A DNA stretch of 49,224 bases from Methanobacteriaceae archaeon (GTDB lineage: Archaea; Methanobacteriota; Methanobacteria; Methanobacteriales; Methanobacteriaceae): positions 1 through 49,224 of the forward strand of contig JAUNXU010000005.1 in the NCBI GenBank assembly GCA_030539615.1, in the 5' to 3' direction. Of this stretch, positions 15,548 through 28,498 are shown in pieces. Under the pieces are notes generated by a model, which made no database searches, was not told the origin of the DNA, and worked only from the letters and a program-made list of their open reading frames with translations. Each line of letters opens with the position of its first letter. The first letter of the stretch is position 1. The translations under genes were made by a program, and so were the position numbers.

Positions 15548-16030
15548 TTAGAGTATTAAATCTTCACCTTTTTCAACAACAATTCTGCATGATACTGGTA
15601 ATTTCATTGCTGCTCTTTTAAGAGCTGTTTTAGCACCAGTAAAATCTTTTTTATTAACATAAGCAGTCATAATTTTTTGATTTGCTTTAACTAAAGCTTC
15701 TGAACTTACTGCTTTTCCGAATGATCCTCTCATTCCACTTTGAACCCTATCTGCTCCTGCACCAGTAGCCATTGGATTTTCTCTCACAATGTGGTGTGGA
15801 TATACTCTTATTTTTAAATGATATCCTACTCTTCCTGCAGTTCTTTGTAAATACCTATTTGCAGATATCCTTCCAGCTTCTAATGCTGCATGTGATAAAT
15901 GTGCTTGTTCTTTAACTTCTAAAGTTACTTTAATTGGATAATCTTCAGTTATACTACCCATGTCATATTGTACTATTTTAGATGCTGGGATTTTTCTTAT
16001 ATATTCTTTTCTTGTGTATGGTCTTACCAT
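15548..16030 (-). CDS. rpl10e: 50S ribosomal protein L10e (uL16 family)
   Basis: A 160-residue archaeal/eukaryotic L10e protein, the counterpart of bacterial L16, which lies near the peptidyl transferase centre and A-site tRNA. The N-terminus [19 protein letters not shown] and the [11 protein letters not shown] and [16 protein letters not shown] stretches are diagnostic. A GGAGG ribosome binding site lies upstream of the ATG. It diverges from the Pcc1 gene over about 270 bp that include TATA-like sequence. Confidence 0.97.
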
Positions 16031-16299: not shown

Positions 16300-16527
16300 A
16301 TGAATATTGAAACAGAATTAATATTTGTATATGAAAATAATAATTATGCAACCATTGCTTATAATTCATTAAATCCTGATAATGAAGATTATGTTTATTC
16401 ATACATAAATAATAATAAATTAATTTGTAATATTAAAAGTTCTAAATTATCAACTACCCTTGCAACTATTGAAGATTTAATTCATTGCGAAGGAATAATT
16501 GAAAAAACTTTTAAAATAAAAAAATAG
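16300..16527 (+). CDS. pcc1: KEOPS complex subunit Pcc1
   Basis: A 75-residue protein of the Pcc1 family, the dimerisation subunit of the KEOPS complex that makes the universal t6A37 tRNA modification with Kae1, Bud32 and Cgi121. The family pattern of two beta-strands, then DNEDYVYSYINNNKLICNI, then a helix starting STTLATIEDLIHC is visible. An AAAGGAG ribosome binding site precedes the ATG. The remaining KEOPS genes are not in this window. It is short and diverged, so confidence is slightly lower. Confidence 0.85.
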   Translation: MNIETELIFVYENNNYATIAYNSLNPDNEDYVYSYINNNKLICNIKSSKLSTTLATIEDLIHCEGIIEKTFKIKK

Positions 16528-16586: not shown

Positions 16587-17351
16587 CTATTCTTCTTCTT
16601 TTAATACTTCAGGTGCAACTTCTTCTTCGGAATCTTCTTCTTTTACAAGTTCTGGTTCAAAGGTTTCTATGAATTTAACTTGTTCAATTGAATCTATATT
16701 TTCCCATGCTTCTTTTGCAACTTTAAATTTAGCTAATGTTATTTCTTGAGCTGATCTTCTTTCAAATCCTGCTAATTTATCTAATTCAATTTCTGCTACA
16801 CAATCGTCAATTGTAATTTTTGTTTTTTCAATGTCCATTTGTGGATTTCCATAATAAACTTTTAATAATCCTTTAAGTTTATCAACATCATCTTCTATTA
16901 CATCAACTACTTCAATATCATATACTATATCTTTTCCAGCTAAAAAATGATTAAAATCTACTGTTATTCTTCCACCATTAACAGTTCTTATTACTCCATT
17001 TATTCCTTCTTGAGAAATAGGCATTCCAACTACTGGTTTAATTCCTTGTTTTTTAAATTCTTTCATTGGAATTAATTTTAGCATACTTGGATCTCTTGGA
17101 CCAAAAGCATCATCTGAAGATATTTCCACAGTTTTTTTATCTCCAATTTCCATACCTACAATTTCATCTTGTAATGCAGAAATTAATTGATCAGAACCTA
17201 CTGCTAAAACCATTGGTTCATATACTTTATTTTCATCATAATATCCTGATTCTTCAGCTTTTTCTGCTAATGTTGTATCAAAAATATCTCCTGTTTCTTT
17301 AACTGATCCAGTATAATTTAATTTTATGAATTCATTTTCATTAATTGCCAT
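16587..17351 (-). CDS. FKBP-type peptidyl-prolyl isomerase (archaeal long form)
   Basis: A 254-residue prolyl isomerase and chaperone. The FKBP core begins with FIKLNYTGSVKETGDIFDTT. The inserted flap domain sits between the core strands: GMEIGDKKTVEISSDDAFGPRD leads to the insert and VDFNHFLAGKDIVYDIEV closes the core. A C-terminal domain of about 100 residues follows and ends in an acidic Glu-rich tail (EEDSEEEVAPEVLKEEE). This is the SlyD-like long FKBP common in methanogens. Its start lies inside the 3' end of the nucleotidyltransferase gene (28-bp overlap), with a GGAG site 13 bp before the ATG. Confidence 0.93.
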   Translation of the reverse strand: MAINENEFIKLNYTGSVKETGDIFDTTLAEKAEESGYYDENKVYEPMVLAVGSDQLISALQDEIVGMEIGDKKTVEISSDDAFGPRDPSMLKLIPMKEFKKQGIKPVVGMPISQEGINGVIRTVNGGRITVDFNHFLAGKDIVYDIEVVDVIEDDVDKLKGLLKVYYGNPQMDIEKTKITIDDCVAEIELDKLAGFERRSAQEITLAKFKVAKEAWENIDSIEQVKFIETFEPELVKEEDSEEEVAPEVLKEEE

Positions 17352-18466
17352 ATGTTTCTATTGTCTCCTATTATGTTATGATTTAAATTATCTTTAAATT
17401 TAGTTAAGCTATCCCTATTTTTATAGTCAAGAATCCGAATAACTTGAGGATAATTATTTATGTATTTATGTATTTCATCTTTTAAAATACCAGCTTCAAG
17501 TACTGATAAAATTCGTAGCTTTTGATGTCTACTAAATCCATGTTCAATATTATTAATCACACTTTCAATATTAGAAAAAGGTCTATTAAAAATAATATTA
17601 TCCTTAGTCTTATTATCAAGTAGCGTTAAATTACGAATATGATTTTCTGAATAATTATTTGCATGATCTAATATAAAATCATTACATCTTGATTCATGTA
17701 AAGGTGCATGACCATTTTCAATCTCTTTTTTTAGTATTTTAAGAGTTGTATCAGGCACCATAGATGCTAATTTATCAAATTTACCTGTCACTGAATATTC
17801 CCTTATTTTTGTACCACTAACATTTTCAATTCGTGGTATAAATATAAAACGATCTTTAAAATTAAAATTAATTTTTGTAAGTGATTTTGATAAAGATACT
17901 ATTACATAATTATCTTCTTTTAATTTCCCATTTAATAGTATAGTATTATCTTCCATTGATACTATTTTATATGGTTTAGGTGCTACCCCTATACCATTAT
18001 TTATTTTACTTAGTATTATTTTAAATTTATGGTCATTATCAACATAACCCCTTGGAATATAATCAGCATTCAAAGCCTTGAACATTTTTGCAAGACATAA
18101 TGAATATTGACCAGAGCCCATAATACCCATTGGAGGACCTTCAACAACTATATCAGCTCCAGTTTCAATTGCTGTTTTAGCTCTCATATAACGAGACATA
18201 ATATATGGTTGACCTCGACCATTACGTTCAAATAAACCTGGAATGACAGCTACAAATAAAGCATCGCCATGTAATTTCTTAGCTTCAACCATACAATGTA
18301 AATGGCCATTATGTAATGGAGAATACTCAGTAAAATCAGCAAATAATGGATATAAATTATTAGAAGATTTAATATTTAATAAAGGTTTTTTAAGATCCTC
18401 ATAAAATGTATTTATATCATTACACATTAAATTTTCAATAAAAGATTGATCAACAGATACAACCAT
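17324..18466 (-). CDS. TmcAL-like nucleotidyltransferase
   Basis: A 380-residue protein of the HIGH-motif nucleotidyltransferase superfamily. The ATP-binding motif is HNGH (52-55) in EYSPLHNGHLH. NGRGQPYIMSRYMRAKTAIETGAD and VVEGPPMGIMGSGQ follow, and further on comes VSGTKIREYSVTGKF. The order and spacing resemble bacterial TmcAL, the tRNA(Met) cytidine acetate ligase, and I infer a related fold and possibly a tRNA- or nucleotide-modifying role. The true substrate is not known. The last 28 bp overlap the FKBP gene in another frame, so the two are probably co-transcribed. It diverges from pyrC. Confidence 0.7.
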   Translation of the reverse strand: MVVSVDQSFIENLMCNDINTFYEDLKKPLLNIKSSNNLYPLFADFTEYSPLHNGHLHCMVEAKKLHGDALFVAVIPGLFERNGRGQPYIMSRYMRAKTAIETGADIVVEGPPMGIMGSGQYSLCLAKMFKALNADYIPRGYVDNDHKFKIILSKINNGIGVAPKPYKIVSMEDNTILLNGKLKEDNYVIVSLSKSLTKINFNFKDRFIFIPRIENVSGTKIREYSVTGKFDKLASMVPDTTLKILKKEIENGHAPLHESRCNDFILDHANNYSENHIRNLTLLDNKTKDNIIFNRPFSNIESVINNIEHGFSRHQKLRILSVLEAGILKDEIHKYINNYPQVIRILDYKNRDSLTKFKDNLNHNIIGDNRNIWQLMKMNS

Positions 18467-18577: not shown

Positions 18578-19861
18578 ATGACAAATTTACTACTAAAAAA
18601 TTGTAAAATAATACCTGAAAATACAATAGTTGACATACAAATAGAAGACAATAAAATAATAAAAATAAGTAAAACAACCCCTAAAACATTACAAGCAGAT
18701 AAAGTAATAGATCTTAAAGAAAAAATAGTACTACCCGGATTAATAGACACACATGTTCATTTTAGAGATCCTGGACAAACATATAAAGAATCTTGGAAAA
18801 CAGGATCACAATCAGCAGCACATGGGGGATATACAACCGTAATTGACATGCCAAATACCACACCTAATACTAATACTGCAAAAAGATTTAAAGAAAAACA
18901 AGAAATAGCAAATAAAAAAAGTATAATAGATTATGGATTACATGCTGGAATAAACACTTCTAAAGATATAAAAGAATTATCTAAACTAAAACCAGCTTCA
19001 TTTAAAATATTCATGGATTTATATACTGATGATAAATTAAAAGAGTTATTTAAAATTATATCAGATACTGGAAAAATATTAACATTACACTGTGAAGATA
19101 AAGAAATTATAGAACATAGCACAAAAAAACAAAAAGAAGTACAAAATGCCAAACCAATAGCATATACAAAAGCAAGACCTGCTCTTGCTGAAATTATATC
19201 TATTGAAAAAGCAATACAATTTGCTAAAGAAAATAAACAACAATTACATATTTGCCATGTAAGTACTCGAAAATCAGTAGAATTAATTAAAATAGCACAA
19301 AAACAAATTAAAATAACTATGGAAGTAACACCACACCACTTATTTTTAGATAGTACTAGTTATAATACATTTAAAACAAAAGCAAAAACTAATCCTCCAT
19401 TAAGAAGTTTATCAGATAATATTAAACTAGAACAATTAAATGAATTTAATTCAATAGCAACTGATCATGCCCCACATACAATTGAAGAAAAAACAGAAGG
19501 TACTTGGAATAGTGCAGCTGGAATTCCAGGACTTGAAACAACATTACCCTTATTATTAACAGAAGTTAATAAAGGGAATATTAAATTAGATCTTATTCAA
19601 GAAAAATTGTGTGAAAATCCTGCTAAAATATTTAATATACCAAATAAAGGATTTATAAAAGAAGGTTATGATGCAGATCTAATAGTATTAAATATGAAAT
19701 TAGAAGGAAAAATTAATTCTGATAATTTTTATACAAAAGGAAAATATACTCCATTCGAAAAACGAAATTATAAAGGAGATTCTATATTAACTATTCAAAA
19801 AGGTAATATTATAGTTGAAAATAATGAAGTTTATAAAAATAAGGGAAATTATATTTATTAA
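18578..19861 (+). CDS. pyrC: Dihydroorotase (PyrC)
   Basis: A 427-residue amidohydrolase that cyclises N-carbamoyl-aspartate to dihydroorotate in pyrimidine synthesis. The zinc ligands are visible in order: H59 and H61 in DTHVHFRDPG, HCED, HICHVST and the catalytic TDHAPHT. The segment NPPLRS before the last motif is typical of class I dihydroorotases and separates it from hydantoinases or allantoinases. It is a single gene with no other pyrimidine genes nearby. Confidence 0.95.
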   Translation: MTNLLLKNCKIIPENTIVDIQIEDNKIIKISKTTPKTLQADKVIDLKEKIVLPGLIDTHVHFRDPGQTYKESWKTGSQSAAHGGYTTVIDMPNTTPNTNTAKRFKEKQEIANKKSIIDYGLHAGINTSKDIKELSKLKPASFKIFMDLYTDDKLKELFKIISDTGKILTLHCEDKEIIEHSTKKQKEVQNAKPIAYTKARPALAEIISIEKAIQFAKENKQQLHICHVSTRKSVELIKIAQKQIKITMEVTPHHLFLDSTSYNTFKTKAKTNPPLRSLSDNIKLEQLNEFNSIATDHAPHTIEEKTEGTWNSAAGIPGLETTLPLLLTEVNKGNIKLDLIQEKLCENPAKIFNIPNKGFIKEGYDADLIVLNMKLEGKINSDNFYTKGKYTPFEKRNYKGDSILTIQKGNIIVENNEVYKNKGNYIY

Positions 19862-19966: not shown

Positions 19967-22900
19967 TTAAATTATATTAGTACTATTATCCACTAATAAA
20001 AGTACTTTTGTAGCAGTTGATAAGTCATATTGTTGATATCCAGCATATTTTATGTATACTGTAACATTATTTAGATTTGATGGTACTTTATACACTGTTT
20101 GTACTATACCATTTTGCACCACTAAATTAGTTGCTACTGTTTTATTATTTACTTTTATAACTGCTTTACCTTCATTAATAACATTTCCGTTTTCAGAAGT
20201 AATGTTACCTATGATGATAATTGTATCTCCTTTTACTGCTATTTCAGGACTTATTTTTATACTAGTTGGTGTATGTTTAAGAGTTAATGTGGCATTTACT
20301 CTAGCTTCCCCATAGTTTTCTGATTGTGTAAATACTTTTGTTATTGTATAATCTTTTGTAGCATAATTTTCTGGTATTGTATATCTGTATGTAGCCATAC
20401 CATTTATTACTGTTGCATTTCCTATTGTTTTTCCATTAAGTTTAAATACCACTATTCCTTCATTTATTATTTTATTGTCTTCACTTGTTAGGGTTGCAGT
20501 TATTACTATAGTATCCCCAGGTGTTGCTACTATATGGTCTTTACTAATATTCACACTTGTTTTTGATATAGTTAATATCCCATTTCCAGATGTTGCTTCA
20601 TAATTTCCATTTCCACCAAATACTGCTGTTATTATATAATCTTTTGAGGAGTAATCTGATGGTATGGTATATTCTTTTATAGCCCATCCATTGTTTATAA
20701 TTACTGTTCCATCTAATGTTATCCCATTAATTTTAAATGCTACTTTACCTGTTTGTAATGGATTATCATTTATATCTGTAAAGTATGCTTTTAATATTAC
20801 TGTTTTACCAGCTTTAGATACACTATCAAACACTTCAACTTTTGATCCAATTTTATCAGTTATAGTTAATATTCCCGTATTATTAGATGATTCATAATCA
20901 TTATTCTTAATGTATATTGCAAGTATTGTATAATTTCCACTTGATGTTTCTTCAGGTATTGAATATCTTATTGAAGCTGTACCATTTATTACTATACTTT
21001 GACCTATTGTTTGACCATTTAATTTAAATGATACTTGACCTGTTAAAACAGGATTATTTATTATATCATATACTTCTGCTTTAAATGTAACATTTGTTCC
21101 ACTTAATGCTTCAACTGAATTTACACTAGTATTTGTTTTATAACTGGACACTACTTTAAGTAAAGACTCATTTGAACTTGATTTATAAACTTTGTTTTCA
21201 GTATAATTTGCTATTACTGTATATCCACCTATAGGTTGAGTTATTGTATAATTATATGTAACAGTTCCATTTGTTACATTAATTGTTGCTATTTTTTGAT
21301 TTTCAATAAATAAATCAACAGATCCAGTATTTAATAGATTATTATTTAAATCTGTTACTGTTGCTGTTATTTTTATTGTATCATTTAGTTTTCCTATGTA
21401 ATTATCCATAATTATTTTTGTTTCTATCTTTTCTTGTACAGTAAGTGTTGCATTATTTTGGGAGCTATGATAACGATTATTTTCTCCATAAATTCCAGTT
21501 ATTGTGTAATTTTTTATTGAGTAATTTTGAGGTATAGTATACTTGTATGTGGCCATTCCTTCAATTACTGTAGCATTTCCTATTGTGTTACCATTGATTT
21601 TGAACACCACTATTCCCATATTTACTATTTTAATATCTGATGCTGTTATTAAAGCAGTTATTGTTTTAACATCACCTGTATTTGATATTATGTTACCTAT
21701 GTTTATAGATGTATTTAATTTATCTACAGTTAATATTCCATTACAACTTGTTGCTTCATAATTTCCATTTCCACCAAATACTGCTGTTATTATATAATCT
21801 TTTGAGGAGTAATCTGATGGTATGGTATATTCTTTTATAGCCCATCCATTGTTTATAATTACTATTCCATCTAATGTTACACCATTAATTTTAAATGCTA
21901 CTTTACCTGTTTGTAATAGATTATCATTTATATCTGTGAAATATGCTTTTAATTCAATAGTTTCACCTGCTTTATCAATAATATTAGATATATTTGATTT
22001 AGAAGCTATTTTAGTAGATATTATTAAGATACCTCCCCCAGTAGATGGTTCATAATCCTCATTTCCAACATATTCAACAGTTATATTATGATTTCCACTT
22101 GGTGTTTCTTCAGGTATTGAATATCCTATTAAAGCCACACCATCATTTACTATTGTCGTTCCTATAACATTACCATCTAATTTAAACATTACATTTCCAG
22201 TCATAACCGGATTATTTACAATATCAAATATTAATGCTTTAAAAGTAACATTTGATCCACTTAATGCTTCAAATGAGTTTACAATCGTATTTGTTTCATA
22301 ACTTGTCACTACTTTAAGTAATGCAGTATCAAAATTTGATTTATAAAGACTGTTTCCATTATAATTTGCTCTTAATACATACTCACCTATAGCTTGAGTT
22401 ATTGTATAATCATATATAACAGTTCCATTTATTACATTAATTGTTGCTATTTTTTGATTTTCAATAAATAAATCAACAGATCCAGTATTTAATGGATTAT
22501 TATTTAAATCTGTTACTGTTGCTGTTATTTTTATTGTATCATTTACTTTTCCCACACTATTTTCAATATTTACAATTGTATCTATTTGTTTTTCTATTGT
22601 AAGGTTGGCAATACTTGTTACTCCATAATATAAACTATTTTCTACATATACTCCTGTTAAAGTATATGTTCCTTCAGTATATCCTATTGGTAATGCATAT
22701 TCATAAAGTACCATTCCATCTTGAACTATTAAATCTTTTACTATGGTATTATTATTTAATTTAAATTCAACTTTTCCTGTTGTAACAGGTCTATTACTTT
22801 TATCAATTAAATATAATTCCAATGTTACATTAGTTTCAGGCAATGCTGTAATATTTTTTACCACCATAAATGTTTTTATTTTTCCTTGAATTGTTAGTAT

Positions 22901-25900
22901 TCCAATATTAGTTGATGGATTATTGTATTCATCACCTTCATAATTTACTTTTATTACATGATCTTGTACTTCAAAATTATTTGGTATTTGATAATTTATT
23001 TTTCCAGTTCCATTAACAACTATTGTTTTTCCTACTAAGTTATCATCAATATAAAATACTAAATTTCCACCATTAATTATTTCTTTATTGTTTGTTACTG
23101 TTGCTGTTAAATTTGTATTAGATCCTTGTAATGCTTTAATATCAGAAACGGTTACTTCAGTATTTCTTTTATTTATAGTTAAGTTTATGGTATTATTAGA
23201 TGAAATATATTGATTATTTCCATTATATATAGCTAAAATATCATAATTTCCAAGAGTATAACTTTTAGGTATTGTCCAATTAGTATAAATTGAACCATTT
23301 ATTAAGTTACCATTTCCAATTAATGTATTTCCAATATAGAAATTAACATTTCCAGATGGTATTCCATGATCACTAATTACATTAGCATATAATATAACCG
23401 TATCACCAATAGTACAGTTAATATCTTTAACAAGTACTGTTGAGTCACATTTTCTTAAATCCATTTTAATGTTTATATTAGAATGGAAATATCTTTCATT
23501 GGCTAAATATGATACTTCCACCTCATAAGTTCCCTCTGAATAATTTTCAGGTATAGTCCAATTAAGATTTGCAAAACCATTATTTAACTCATTAATACCA
23601 ATTAACTGTTCACCTATAGCAAAACTAACATTACCATAAGGAACATCAACATTACTGACAACCTGTGCATGTAATACAATATCCTCCCTTAATGTAGCAT
23701 TTATGTTATTACTAAATGTATGTGTAGGTATTTGTAATATAGTTAATATTCCATTACCTGATGACATATTATTATATTTATTTCCAGAATAATCTGCAGT
23801 TATTGTATAATTTCCTGTTTTAAAATTTTCAGGTATATTATATTTTAATTCAGATTTTCCATTGGAAACTGGAGTTATACCCACCAATTCTCCATTTACA
23901 TAAAATGTCATATTTCCATCAATAATTACTACATGTTTATTATTAGTTACTTCCGCCACCAATGTTATATTTCCATCTGGTATTGATTGACTATCAGTTA
24001 CTTGAACTATTGTATCTAATTTTTCAAGATTTAATATTATAGTTGTATTTGATGTTTCATATTCCGAATTTCCATGATACCATATTAATACATTATATGA
24101 TCCTGGAATAAACGATTCAGGTATTATTTCCCATTCAATTCTAGCTACACCATTTACTAACTCACCCACCCCAAGTATATCTTTATTTAATATGAATTCA
24201 ACAGTTCCTGTAGGTATTCCATAAGAACTTGATACCTGAGCAATTAATTCTATAGTCTCCATTATTTTTGCATTAATATTTGGACTAGTAATAGTAGTTG
24301 GTTTTATTTTAACTATTAAATCAGAATTTTCTTCAACTATTATTTTTCCAGATCCATTATACCCTGCAATTAAAGCATAAATTCCTCCAGGAAGATTAAA
24401 TGTATAGTTTATTTTTGCTACTCCATTTGTTACATTTGCAACACCTATTACACGTTCATCAATTTTGAAAATTACAACACCTGTTGTAATATTTTCTCCT
24501 TTATTATTTTGAACTGTTGATTTAACTTCTGCAGTTTCATTTACATATACATCTAAATCATTTATATGAACATGAACTGGCTCTAGTGTTATATTTAATA
24601 TTGCATTACCAGAACTTGATGCATAAAACTCATTTCCGTTATAAAATGCAGTTATAGTATATACTCCAGGAGTTTTAGTTTCAGTATACTTTAATCTAGC
24701 ATATCCTAAGTTATCAAGAGTTACATTTCCTATTTCTTTATTATCAATAAAGAATGTTACTATTCCTTTTACAACAACAAATGCATCACCATTAACTACA
24801 CCAGCTACTAAATATACTTCTTCACCAACATATCTAGTATTTTTTTCAACTGTTGTATATGTAGGATTTTTATTAACAGTTATATTTTTCAAAATACTAT
24901 TTGCATCATAATTAATTGTTTTTGGATATGATACATTGAAAGTATAAACACCAGCAGGTAATTGAACATGGTATAATACATTAGCAATTCCATTTGTTAC
25001 ATTAGCTTCACCAACAATAGTACCATTAACAGAAAGAATTATTACTCCTTCATTAATATTATTACCTTCAGAATCGGTTACTTTTACAGTTATATTTGTT
25101 ATTGTGTTAGCATATACCGATTCAGTTAAAACTACTATAGTAGGTTTTGAAACCATACCTATTTCTTGTGATACATCTGTTAAAACATTTGCTGTTTTTA
25201 TTTTTACAATTTCAAAACTACCAGTTGTAAATGTGAATTTAGATGAACTAAGACCATTTAAAGTTTGATTAATATTAGGATTAATTGTTCCAGCATTATT
25301 AGTTAAAACAAATTCAACATCAACCCCATCAAACATGTGTCCAGATTCATATCTTGGATCAACATTCCATTTTTTTAACCAATTGAAATCAGTTGTAATT
25401 AATTTCATTTTTTCATCAATATCATTTACTGTTAATTTTAAATAAATCCATTCAAATGGTGCATTAAATGGTTCATTTAATATTTCAGTAAAGTTAGGGT
25501 CATTACTTCCCCACCAATTAGTTTCCATCAAAGTAGTACCTAACCCTATATAAATCACATTTTTAGTTAGATTATTATCTAAGAATAATGAATCTTTTAC
25601 TGTTAAATTATCATTATTAAAAATTGCACTACCATTTCCATTATTTTTTACAAAGATAGAATTTGTAATTGTTGCATTACCATTATTATATATTGCTCCA
25701 CCTTGAGTTGCCATATTATTTATAAAAGTTACCTTATTTAAGGTTACATTTGATACACTAACTACTGATTTCTCATTATATATTGCTCCACCATAACCAA
25801 TTTTAGTTTCACTCCTATCAGTTACAGTGTTATTTTCAAATAAGGTATTTTCTATATATGCAATATTATTTTGTCTAAGATCTAATGCTCCTCCAGAACC

Positions 25901-28498
25901 TTTTGCTGTGTTATTTATAAAGTTTGTATTATTTATAATAACATTAGATAACACTTTTTGTCCTTGAATAAATACTGCAGCTCCTGTTTCACCATTATTA
26001 TTTGTTATATTTGAATTATTTATTATTAAATTATCACTTGTAAAAGCTATTGCTCCACCTTTAGCACCTGTAGCTACATTTTTATCAAATACAGTATTTT
26101 CTATAAGAAGTAAAGTTACAATACCTGTTGTATCATAAGTACTTATTGCTCCACCATGTGTTCCAACAGTATTTTCAATAAATTTAGAATTATTTATTTT
26201 AAATTCATCTTTAGCCACATATATTGCCCCACCATATACTCCTGCATAGTTTTTTATAAATATGGTATTATTTACTGTTGTATTACCATGACTATATATT
26301 GCCCCAGCACTAGGTTTTACTGCTTTATTTTCTTCAAAGATGGAATCATAAACTGTTAAATTACATCTATTATTTATTGCTCCACCTGAAGTAGTATCTC
26401 CTGCATTAGATGTTGCTTGGTTATTTGTAAAATTCCCTATTTTTATTATTAAATTACCATTATTATATATTGCTCCCCCACCATAGGTTCCTGTTGCATT
26501 ATTTCCTGCAAATTTAACATTAGTTAATAATACTGAAGAATTTTCAATAGTATATACAGCTCCACCCCATAATGCTTTATTATCTATAAATTCAGAATTT
26601 TCTACTGTGAAGTTAGAACCATATATTGCTCCACCAACTTTAGTTGCAGTATTATTTATAAATCTTGAATTTATAATTGTTAATTTACCATTATTATATA
26701 CTGCCCCACCATATGATGCAATATTATTTGCTATTGTCACATTATTTAAAATTACTTCACCAGTTGGTTTTTCAATTAATATTGCTCCCCCTTGACTTGG
26801 ATCTGTTCCTTTATCAATAATTGTATTATTTTCAAATACTGTATTTTCCACATATACTGCTGCATTTGATGTAATATCTATACATCCACCAGATCTATTT
26901 ATGTAACCATTTATTACTTTTGTATTGTTTATAGTTACATTTGAAAATGCTTTTTCACCTGTAATTAATATTGCAGCACCACTTGCACCAGTAATATTTG
27001 TTATAATTGTATTATCAATTAATAATTGAGATCCAGTAAAAGCTATGGCTCCACCTCGACTACCAGCCCATCCTTGATCAAAAATACAATTATCTATTAT
27101 AAGTGATTTTACTCCACTATTAGATTCATATGTTCCTACTGCACCACCATGTATTTTTGCAGTGTTTTTAGTAAAATTACAATTTGTTATCTTATTTATT
27201 CCAGTACCAGTGTGAACTGCTCCTGAATAATACCCTGATGTATTATTTTCAAAGAGAGTATTATCAATAATTAATTCTTCTCCAAAGAAACATATTGCCC
27301 CACCATTAGGATAATATACTGTATTATTTATGAATTTAGAATTATATATTGTTAAATTACCTTTTAAAATATAAATTGCTCCACCAGATCCACCCCTTGT
27401 ATTTCCAGGCATATTATTAAACTTAAAAATATTATTATCAATAATTATACTTCCACCATTACTATAAATAGCTCCACCACCATAGAAATTACCATTTGAT
27501 GTTCCATTATTATCAGTAAATAAAGTATCGTTTATAATTAAATTTTTACTATTATATATTGCCCCTCCAAGCACTGCTTTATTATCATTGAATGTTAATC
27601 CATCAATAGTTATGTTACCCCTATTAAATATTGCTCCACCACCACCAGTTGATTGAGGTTGAGTTGCATTATTTCCTTTAAATGTACTTTTAGTTATTTG
27701 TAAATTTCCAAGATTATATATTGCACCACCAGATATTGCAATATTATCTTGTAATATAGAATCTATTATTGTTAAATTCCCATTATTATATATTGCACCA
27801 CCACTACTTTGATTTCCTTGAGCAAAAGTTATATTTTTTATGTTTATTGTAAATCCAGAAGTTATTGTTAATATCTGTAATTTATTATTTCCATTAATAA
27901 TTGTATTAGTTGAACTTTCCCCTATTATATTTACAATTTTATTTGTTAAATTAGGATTATTCATATTATTAGTAGATAATGTTGTATAACCATCACCCAT
28001 GACATATGTTCCATTATTAAAATATAATGTGTTAACTGTGTCTGTTAATTCAGTTAATGCTGTTCCTGTTTGAGACCAATAATACGGATTATCTATAGAC
28101 CCAGTACCTGTTGTTCCATTTCCAGGTTGAATATATATCCTATTTTCTAAATTTGCTGTTTTTATATCTACTCTTTTTTGTTCATTTATTTGAGTTTTAT
28201 TTTCTAATTTTATTTCTTTATTTATATCACATTTTTCATTTATATTATCATTTATTTCTATTTGTGAAGCTTGTCCGCCACCTGATTCTACACTACTTTT
28301 TTGATAATTTGTTTCATAGTCATCCATTGCTATTTTAGGTGAACTTTTTGTTTCTATTTCTATTGGTGTTTCAACTGTTGTTTCTGATATTATTGTCTCA
28401 TTGTCGATTTCTGTCACTTGTACTGCATTTATTGTACTAAGTGTTGTAATCAAAAGTAATGTCCCCAGTATAATTAATAGTATATTACTATTTTTCAT
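19967..28498 (-). CDS. Giant adhesin-like surface protein (beta-helix plus 18 Ig-like repeats)
   Basis: A 2843-residue Asn/Thr-rich secreted protein of the methanogen adhesin-like family. Residues 1-26 form a signal peptide ending near INAVQ. A low-complexity segment reaches about 120. From about 125 to 1000 it is a right-handed beta-helix built from GGAIYNNGNLTI-type turns, closed by NWWGSNDPNF near 993. From about 1115 to the end I count 18 Ig-like repeats (Big_3 type) of about 96 residues, most ending with a pattern like YTITAxYxGNxxYxxSxxNxILTI. Repeats 10-13 and 14-17 are a recent tandem duplication. No C-terminal membrane anchor or pseudomurein-binding domain is visible, so retention at the surface must be by another means. 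A GGAGGA ribosome binding site lies before the ATG. Host or cell attachment is inferred, not shown. Confidence 0.9.
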   Translation of the reverse strand: MKNSNILLIILGTLLLITTLSTINAVQVTEIDNETIISETTVETPIEIETKSSPKIAMDDYETNYQKSSVESGGGQASQIEINDNINEKCDINKEIKLENKTQINEQKRVDIKTANLENRIYIQPGNGTTGTGSIDNPYYWSQTGTALTELTDTVNTLYFNNGTYVMGDGYTTLSTNNMNNPNLTNKIVNIIGESSTNTIINGNNKLQILTITSGFTINIKNITFAQGNQSSGGAIYNNGNLTIIDSILQDNIAISGGAIYNLGNLQITKSTFKGNNATQPQSTGGGGAIFNRGNITIDGLTFNDNKAVLGGAIYNSKNLIINDTLFTDNNGTSNGNFYGGGAIYSNGGSIIIDNNIFKFNNMPGNTRGGSGGAIYILKGNLTIYNSKFINNTVYYPNGGAICFFGEELIIDNTLFENNTSGYYSGAVHTGTGINKITNCNFTKNTAKIHGGAVGTYESNSGVKSLIIDNCIFDQGWAGSRGGAIAFTGSQLLIDNTIITNITGASGAAILITGEKAFSNVTINNTKVINGYINRSGGCIDITSNAAVYVENTVFENNTIIDKGTDPSQGGAILIEKPTGEVILNNVTIANNIASYGGAVYNNGKLTIINSRFINNTATKVGGAIYGSNFTVENSEFIDNKALWGGAVYTIENSSVLLTNVKFAGNNATGTYGGGAIYNNGNLIIKIGNFTNNQATSNAGDTTSGGAINNRCNLTVYDSIFEENKAVKPSAGAIYSHGNTTVNNTIFIKNYAGVYGGAIYVAKDEFKINNSKFIENTVGTHGGAISTYDTTGIVTLLLIENTVFDKNVATGAKGGAIAFTSDNLIINNSNITNNNGETGAAVFIQGQKVLSNVIINNTNFINNTAKGSGGALDLRQNNIAYIENTLFENNTVTDRSETKIGYGGAIYNEKSVVSVSNVTLNKVTFINNMATQGGAIYNNGNATITNSIFVKNNGNGSAIFNNDNLTVKDSLFLDNNLTKNVIYIGLGTTLMETNWWGSNDPNFTEILNEPFNAPFEWIYLKLTVNDIDEKMKLITTDFNWLKKWNVDPRYESGHMFDGVDVEFVLTNNAGTINPNINQTLNGLSSSKFTFTTGSFEIVKIKTANVLTDVSQEIGMVSKPTIVVLTESVYANTITNITVKVTDSEGNNINEGVIILSVNGTIVGEANVTNGIANVLYHVQLPAGVYTFNVSYPKTINYDANSILKNITVNKNPTYTTVEKNTRYVGEEVYLVAGVVNGDAFVVVKGIVTFFIDNKEIGNVTLDNLGYARLKYTETKTPGVYTITAFYNGNEFYASSSGNAILNITLEPVHVHINDLDVYVNETAEVKSTVQNNKGENITTGVVIFKIDERVIGVANVTNGVAKINYTFNLPGGIYALIAGYNGSGKIIVEENSDLIVKIKPTTITSPNINAKIMETIELIAQVSSSYGIPTGTVEFILNKDILGVGELVNGVARIEWEIIPESFIPGSYNVLIWYHGNSEYETSNTTIILNLEKLDTIVQVTDSQSIPDGNITLVAEVTNNKHVVIIDGNMTFYVNGELVGITPVSNGKSELKYNIPENFKTGNYTITADYSGNKYNNMSSGNGILTILQIPTHTFSNNINATLREDIVLHAQVVSNVDVPYGNVSFAIGEQLIGINELNNGFANLNWTIPENYSEGTYEVEVSYLANERYFHSNINIKMDLRKCDSTVLVKDINCTIGDTVILYANVISDHGIPSGNVNFYIGNTLIGNGNLINGSIYTNWTIPKSYTLGNYDILAIYNGNNQYISSNNTINLTINKRNTEVTVSDIKALQGSNTNLTATVTNNKEIINGGNLVFYIDDNLVGKTIVVNGTGKINYQIPNNFEVQDHVIKVNYEGDEYNNPSTNIGILTIQGKIKTFMVVKNITALPETNVTLELYLIDKSNRPVTTGKVEFKLNNNTIVKDLIVQDGMVLYEYALPIGYTEGTYTLTGVYVENSLYYGVTSIANLTIEKQIDTIVNIENSVGKVNDTIKITATVTDLNNNPLNTGSVDLFIENQKIATINVINGTVIYDYTITQAIGEYVLRANYNGNSLYKSNFDTALLKVVTSYETNTIVNSFEALSGSNVTFKALIFDIVNNPVMTGNVMFKLDGNVIGTTIVNDGVALIGYSIPEETPSGNHNITVEYVGNEDYEPSTGGGILIISTKIASKSNISNIIDKAGETIELKAYFTDINDNLLQTGKVAFKINGVTLDGIVIINNGWAIKEYTIPSDYSSKDYIITAVFGGNGNYEATSCNGILTVDKLNTSINIGNIISNTGDVKTITALITASDIKIVNMGIVVFKINGNTIGNATVIEGMATYKYTIPQNYSIKNYTITGIYGENNRYHSSQNNATLTVQEKIETKIIMDNYIGKLNDTIKITATVTDLNNNLLNTGSVDLFIENQKIATINVTNGTVTYNYTITQPIGGYTVIANYTENKVYKSSSNESLLKVVSSYKTNTSVNSVEALSGTNVTFKAEVYDIINNPVLTGQVSFKLNGQTIGQSIVINGTASIRYSIPEETSSGNYTILAIYIKNNDYESSNNTGILTITDKIGSKVEVFDSVSKAGKTVILKAYFTDINDNPLQTGKVAFKINGITLDGTVIINNGWAIKEYTIPSDYSSKDYIITAVFGGNGNYEATSGNGILTISKTSVNISKDHIVATPGDTIVITATLTSEDNKIINEGIVVFKLNGKTIGNATVINGMATYRYTIPENYATKDYTITKVFTQSENYGEARVNATLTLKHTPTSIKISPEIAVKGDTIIIIGNITSENGNVINEGKAVIKVNNKTVATNLVVQNGIVQTVYKVPSNLNNVTVYIKYAGYQQYDLSTATKVLLLVDNSTNII
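20284..22598. repeat. Tandem duplication, period 1158 bp, inside the adhesin gene
   Basis: Two consecutive units of 1158 bp (386 codons, four Ig-like domains) align without a gap. Exact matches include 115 bases at 20591-20705 and 21749-21863, and the stretch beginning TTGTTGCTATTTTTTGATTT at 21283 and 22441. All are offset by 1158. The outer limits are approximate. The length is a multiple of three, so gain or loss of a unit keeps the frame. Confidence 0.85.

Follow-up and report, generated by a model that had tools for sequence, protein, structure and literature searches.

The locus raises two questions: whether an ORF with an HNGH motif in the window (the whole stretch of DNA analysed, 49,224 nucleotides from a Methanobacteriaceae archaeon) encodes an archaeal counterpart of bacterial TmcAL, as an earlier note on this DNA had proposed, and which product such a protein would make. 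The gene occupies 17324..18466 on the minus strand, starts with ATG and encodes 380 amino acids, according to the ORF list, profile and sequence matches and an AlphaFold model. Pfam profile search assigned the ORF to PF16581 (E 1.3e-72, 244.5 bits against a cut-off of 26.7) and to PF05636 (E 4.4e-25), and sequence search recovered MJ0951 of Methanocaldococcus jannaschii (PDB 3gmi; 6.1e-84) and the TmcAL of T. maritima (2.8e-13). Together with relatives across the phylum, these matches make the HNGH-bearing ORF real by homology, and the protein belongs to the archaeal UPF0348 branch within the TmcAL superfamily. This branch is already known as a family. Its novelty was ruled out by the 3gmi crystal structure, public since 2009 under a title naming a protein of unknown function, and by the accessible part of PMC12514573, which places TmcAL-type proteins in 'some archaea' too. 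Our literature search, based on titles and the start of abstracts and covering few subscription papers, found no work testing an archaeal TmcAL-like protein and no paper on MJ0951 by name. On the NCBIfam equivalog for TmcAL (NF010191) the ORF scored 83.7 bits against a cut-off of 360, while the B. velezensis TmcAL reached 484.4 bits.

The PF16581 profile had matches in 148 of the 151 genomes of the window's phylum. Strong homologues of the archaeal branch (best PF16581 row with E <1e-50, counted by hand) were present in 132/151 genomes, and 16 of the 148 matching genomes had weak matches only (best E 1.9e-9 to 3.4e-14), as the longer paralogue described below gives. The branch was also present in 32 out of 36 genomes of the phylum containing a Methanocaldococcus. 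A scan of named genomes retrieved 94 relatives, and the best 80 of the 94 were taken further; by title they were of Methanobacteriaceae type, plus three of Methanococci type, with five titled merely 'archaeon' or 'Euryarchaeota archaeon'. The three top-scoring named loci (L111, L100, L103) carry the title Methanosphaera, which makes a Methanosphaera host probable. The genome from which the window comes also encodes another UPF0348-like protein, which is longer (L003:618-1922, contig C93; 434 aa, relatives about 430). It is divergent, with PF16581 (44.1 bits), PF05636 (28.5 bits) and ATP-sulfurylase (27.7 bits) all above cut-off and sub-threshold FAD-synthase matches. Relatives of this protein, some of them weak, occurred in 119/150 genomes of the phylum at E <=0.001 and in 0/19 other genomes of the same genus, and its best full-length outside match had 56% identity; a contaminant contig, a retained gene and transfer are alternative origins.

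The AlphaFold model, built on 41 sequences, had a pLDDT of 93.3 and a pTM of 0.92. Using VIA-align, it matched 3gmi over nearly the full length (Z 37.2; 45% identity in the structural alignment) and the TmcAL structures of T. maritima (5y0r-t) and B. subtilis (5y0n-q) with Z 28.4-29.3 over 315-322 residues (model 39-379), at 16-20% identity. The best TmcAL alignment covered residues 1-367 of 5y0t (Z 29.3, rmsd 3.4, 322 residues) and stopped there in the 414-residue chain 5y0t_A. The next family, CoaD (phosphopantetheine adenylyltransferase, PPAT), shares the nucleotidyltransferase fold: it matched the catalytic domain only (156 residues within 37-253), had no match to the C-terminal domain and reached Z 13.6, about half that of TmcAL. 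Foldseek gave the same order (3gmi, then TmcAL at 7.1e-17, then CoaD, with NadD also below TmcAL), and a profile-profile comparison with six bacterial TmcALs gave a probability of 99.4 and E 7e-22 over 304 columns. The PF16581 region (residues 147-347; 17426..18028, minus strand) includes, by profile and structure, the C-terminal domain common to TmcAL. Thus, as far as the predicted model goes, the archaeal protein has both the nucleotidyltransferase domain and the TmcAL C-terminal domain. An ordinary single-domain HIGH nucleotidyltransferase (CoaD, NadD, RibF) was ruled out on the Z values of 29.3 for TmcAL and 13.6 for CoaD.

The likeness to TmcAL claimed in the earlier note was therefore borne out over both domains, by profile and by structure, and the structure prediction it had suggested gave a whole-protein match. 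The note had named as contrary evidence a better fit to a HIGH family lacking the C-terminal domain; none was found. What decides is the C-terminal domain common to TmcAL, the core taken alone being indecisive. A helix-hairpin-helix match (HHH_3) in the C-terminal part was rejected as too weak: 4/41 members matched at E <=0.001 (best 5.6e-5), and the top score among ten rescanned members was 20.6 bits, with the cut-off at 27.

An enzyme that adenylates or nucleotidylates a small molecule (a cofactor or thiol substrate) without acting on RNA would also fit a catalytic domain that matches PPAT. The IPRGY motif, unlike TmcAL, points the same way, as do weak matches, each below its cut-off, in a scan of ten members: the best reached 0.0011 for citrate lyase ligase and 1.8e-4 for ATP-sulfurylase. 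We regard this as rather unlikely: the C-terminal domain common to TmcAL is absent from the PPAT match, the citrate lyase ligase match also occurs in 4/5 bacterial TmcALs and hence is not archaeal-specific, and the neighbourhood of the gene is translational, as detailed below.

HNGH (residues 52-55; 18302..18313, minus strand), read from the sequence, is an ATP motif of the HIGH type. According to the alignment, IPRGY (residues 137-141; 18044..18058, minus strand) occupies the place of the bacterial xxFGSE, and SGTKIR (residues 217-222; 17801..17818, minus strand) is the counterpart of the bacterial SATxIR. In a joint alignment of 115 unique archaeal ORFs and six bacterial TmcALs, the counted positions of the motifs DFTEY..HxGH, GRG, EGPxMG, IPRGY and SGxxIR were kept in 113-115 of the 115 ORFs. 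The remaining motif positions of the archaeal branch were invariant or conserved in at least 90% of 41 sequences, the window included. In particular, H52, G54 and H55 were present in 114/115 ORFs, the remaining ORF being gapped in the alignment. Residues common to both groups were E47, P50, H52, G54, H55, R84, G85, G140, R212, S217, I221 and R222, each in 114 or 115 of the 115 archaeal ORFs, with one ORF gapped at some positions; the likeness to the crystallised TmcALs thus includes HxGH, SxTxIR, G140 and R212 besides both domains. MJ0951 carries the same motifs (DFTEY, ERSGRG, EGPPMGIMGSGQY, IPRGY and SGTKIR), except that the window protein reads ERNGRG. The idea of an invariant cysteine was dropped: C58 is A or N in 15/115 ORFs, and MJ0951 has A there.

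The window protein also has an N-terminal extension (residues 1-38; 18353..18466, minus strand), which was unaligned with the six bacterial TmcALs and forms in the AlphaFold model a helix at residues 7-25 that TmcAL lacks. Across 41 sequences, D17 of this extension was invariant and D24 nearly so.

Our direct results comprise the family, the two-domain fold, the core motif residues, the distribution and genomic setting, and a search that did not find TmcA. Given these, we consider it likely that the protein works, broadly stated, like TmcAL, as an ATP-dependent acid:tRNA ligase. Tentatively, and with clearly less confidence, we propose an ATP-dependent tRNA acyltransferase whose most likely product is ac4C34 on elongator tRNA-Met. 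ATP would be bound by the HNGH/SGTKIR nucleotidyltransferase site, and a small carboxylate, probably acetate, would be adenylated as in TmcAL, for which the accessible text of PMC7408541 and PMC12514573 describes ATP-dependent acetate adenylation. We infer that the acyl group would then be moved to a base of a tRNA gripped by the C-terminal domain, the most likely target being N4 of C34 in elongator tRNA-Met. The acylated elongator would then not read AUA.

The joint alignment also contained fixed differences. With bacterial numbers from B. velezensis, S38 (the S of MSG), Q43 (the Q of QRG), L70 (the L of ELP), F100 (the F of FGSE), N162 and A207 are replaced by P76, R81, G110, R139, D185 and G218, respectively, in 114-115 of the 115 archaeal ORFs, with a one-residue alignment shift possible at N162, where D185 adjoins N186 (N in 110/115). 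K52 is replaced by R92 in 114/115. R139 and G140 of IPRGY were found in 115/115 ORFs, while bacterial TmcALs had F and G in 6/6. From these residues, it looks as if the ATP site was kept and the substrate site re-tuned. Because several motif positions carry other fixed residues, caution is needed on ac4C as the product; these replacements and the missed NF010191 cut-off both count against ac4C on tRNA-Met. A loss of the basic residues K300, R301 and R306 of the bacterial C-terminal domain was also considered, and dropped because two joint alignments place that stretch differently.

The same fixed changes suggest an altered substrate, and the same chemistry could acylate another tRNA base, notably N6 of adenine (ac6A or its formyl analogue). 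According to the accessible part of a 2018 review (PMC6313347), Methanopyrus kandleri tRNA contains ac6A, a nucleoside whose biosynthesis is given as unknown and which has no enzyme assigned there. In the part of PMC7668247 accessible to us, one mass in M. maripaludis tRNAs fits ac6A at A7 and another f6A at A37. Both assignments have equal-mass alternatives and are the authors' preference rather than proof, the homologous tRNA of M. jannaschii has an unmodified A at the corresponding position (PMC7668247, same part), and no sequence feature of the protein indicates adenine. We judge this alternative unlikely, while giving it a real chance. Slightly less probable still is its strongest form, in which the branch would be an acid:tRNA ligase with altered specificity and the missing N6-acyladenosine enzyme (ac6A, perhaps f6A), with P76, R81, G110, R139 and D185 marking a new substrate site, and would not make ac4C.

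For ac4C34 as the product, the distribution of TmcA is relevant. TmcA, the GNAT/helicase ac4C enzyme, is an unrelated protein whose only likeness to the window protein is the proposed product. Its profile, PF13718, was not among the ORF's own matches at E <=1. Checking for TmcA had been suggested in the earlier note, and profile search found PF13718 neither in the own genome (94% complete) nor across the phylum (0/150 genomes), nor in the phylum of Methanocaldococcus (0/36). Among 14 control genomes, four had PF05636 (B. subtilis, T. maritima, L. lactis and M. jannaschii), three had PF13718 (E. coli, H. volcanii and S. acidocaldarius) and none had both; the other seven, Methanosarcina acetivorans among them, had neither. 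The two families are thus complementary, though not obligatory, and Methanosarcina acetivorans, with neither of them, counts against ac4C on tRNA-Met. With TmcA in 0/150 and 0/36 genomes and the gene in 132/151 and 32/36, the protein is a leading candidate for any tRNA acyl mark of these methanogens. If ac4C34 is its product, TmcA and TmcAL would replace each other in archaea as in bacteria; if another product is true, the enzyme would be supplied for an orphan methanogen nucleoside. The surprise is limited in either case, the family and a crystal structure having been public since 2009.

We surveyed tRNA genes in 20/21 stretches of the own genome (contig C93 left out), 20/21 stretches of a Methanocaldococcus genome and 16 stretches of a third genome. 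ARAGORN detected three CAU tRNAs in the own genome, all with the loop CTCATAA (the elongator read without its intron), which, from characteristic features of their sequences, we take to be tRNA-Ile2, initiator tRNA-Met and an intron-bearing elongator tRNA-Met. Within the anticodon loop of the elongator candidate (L200:48-157), an intron of 35 bases is predicted. In the third genome, the CAU tRNAs seen were initiator and elongator Met alone. The elongator genes of that genome and of Methanocaldococcus contained introns too; in the latter, the ARAGORN boundaries leave an abnormal arm and CTCATAA is obtained only with a hand-drawn intron, so we left it uncounted. TiaS, which makes agmatidine on tRNA-Ile2, was found in 20/21 genomes searched, the own genome included. 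In 16 hand-chosen ORFs of the window, AUA accounted for 359 of the 611 Ile codons, and with such AUA-rich codon use a guarded C34 on elongator Met would be useful. Bacterial TmcAL selects its tRNA through nucleotides 32 and 38, according to the accessible part of PMC12514573. Since all three CAU tRNAs share CTCATAA, this rule could not single out elongator Met here, a point that bears on discrimination and is silent on binding itself.

In the accessible table for H. volcanii (PMC2584109), the tRNAs with ac4C34 are those for Gln, Glu, Lys, Pro and Ser, and elongator Met has Cm34 instead. We hold ac4C34 on elongator Met lower because of this Cm34: Haloferax being a TmcA archaeon, a substitute for TmcA need not acetylate Met. 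The accessible part of PMC7668247 places 13 ac4C residues in thermophiles and none in M. maripaludis, reports Cm34 on the M. maripaludis initiator tRNA-Met, and gives no description of C34 in its elongator tRNA-Met; this too counts against ac4C on tRNA-Met.

The protein could also make ac4C34 on tRNAs other than Met, such as Gln (CUG), filling the role that TmcA has in Haloferax and Pyrococcus. In archaea with TmcA, tRNA-Gln bears ac4C34 or ac4Cm34 (accessible parts of PMC2584109 and PMC7668247), and the own genome holds further C34 tRNAs (Gln CTG, Arg CCT and Thr CGT). But the C34 tRNAs that PMC7668247 gives, in the accessible part, for M. maripaludis are Ile(CAU), Met, initiator Met and Trp, with no others, and the bacterial relatives with reported activity act on Met, which makes this an improbable alternative to ac4C34 on elongator tRNA-Met.

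Finally, we examined the genomic setting. The gene is the first of a pair whose second member (16587..17351, minus strand) encodes an FKBP26-type peptidyl-prolyl isomerase, identified by Pfam (PF22199, 3.1e-23; PF18046, 5.4e-22; PF00254, 3.8e-9). The 28-bp overlap with FKBP in the earlier note was confirmed by the ORF coordinates (17324..17351), and a putative Shine-Dalgarno of FKBP, AGGAG (17365..17369, minus strand), lies within the TmcAL-like reading frame, as it also does in seven relatives whose junctions were compared. In these seven, a stop codon (TAA, TAG or TGA) within the start of FKBP closes the TmcAL-like frame after WQ (after CQ in one), while the window has TTA at that position and six further residues on the protein. 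We infer from these junctions that the window may have lost this stop, extending a 10-bp overlap to 28 bp.

A same-strand FKBP ORF was present within the available stretch in 33 of the best 80 of the 94 named loci, a few of the other 47 stretches stopping 200-800 bases past the gene. It overlapped the TmcAL-like gene in 22 of the 33, and 20 of these 22 overlaps were of exactly 10 bp with script-chosen starts, so that 28 bp was ruled out as a conserved length. The four loci most like MJ0951 (L034-L037) had no same-strand FKBP ORF, L034 spanning only 410 bases downstream. Many Methanobrevibacter loci had L10e and Pcc1 near and no FKBP match, so that FKBP cannot be an obligatory partner. In the window, the overlap stated in the earlier note is real and the AGGAG lies inside the gene; the linkage to FKBP does not extend to all relatives. 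Overlap with FKBP in 22 of the best 80 of 94 loci and a prefoldin alpha gene upstream in one Methanocaldococcus (L036) would suit a protein that has lost enzyme activity and has a binding or chaperone-linked role alongside FKBP. In 114-115 of 115 ORFs the core motif residues are alike, which is unexpected for a dead enzyme, and we consider this reading very improbable.

Between the FKBP gene and the gene of ribosomal protein uL16/L10e (15548..16030, minus strand; profile matches) lies a convergent gene for Pcc1, a KEOPS subunit of 75 aa (16300..16527, plus strand; NF011470, 40.9 bits against a cut-off of 27). The KEOPS complex takes part in t6A37 synthesis, and Pcc1 recurs as a neighbour in many relatives. 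The gene neighbourhood is thus translational (L10e, Pcc1). The L036 locus of Methanocaldococcus also has a tRNA-Val gene upstream, beside prefoldin alpha, and an RNA-ligase partner protein downstream. Upstream of the TmcAL-like gene in the window is a divergent dihydroorotase of the pyrC type (18578..19861, plus strand; TIGR00857, 8.2e-120). In Monoglobus (L156:1-2713), pta and acetate kinase genes are neighbours of the TmcAL gene, which fits an acetate-using enzyme. Finally, the window contains an Asn-rich, repetitive ORF of 2843 aa with a signal-peptide-like start (19967-28498, minus strand), which is probably a surface adhesin-like protein.
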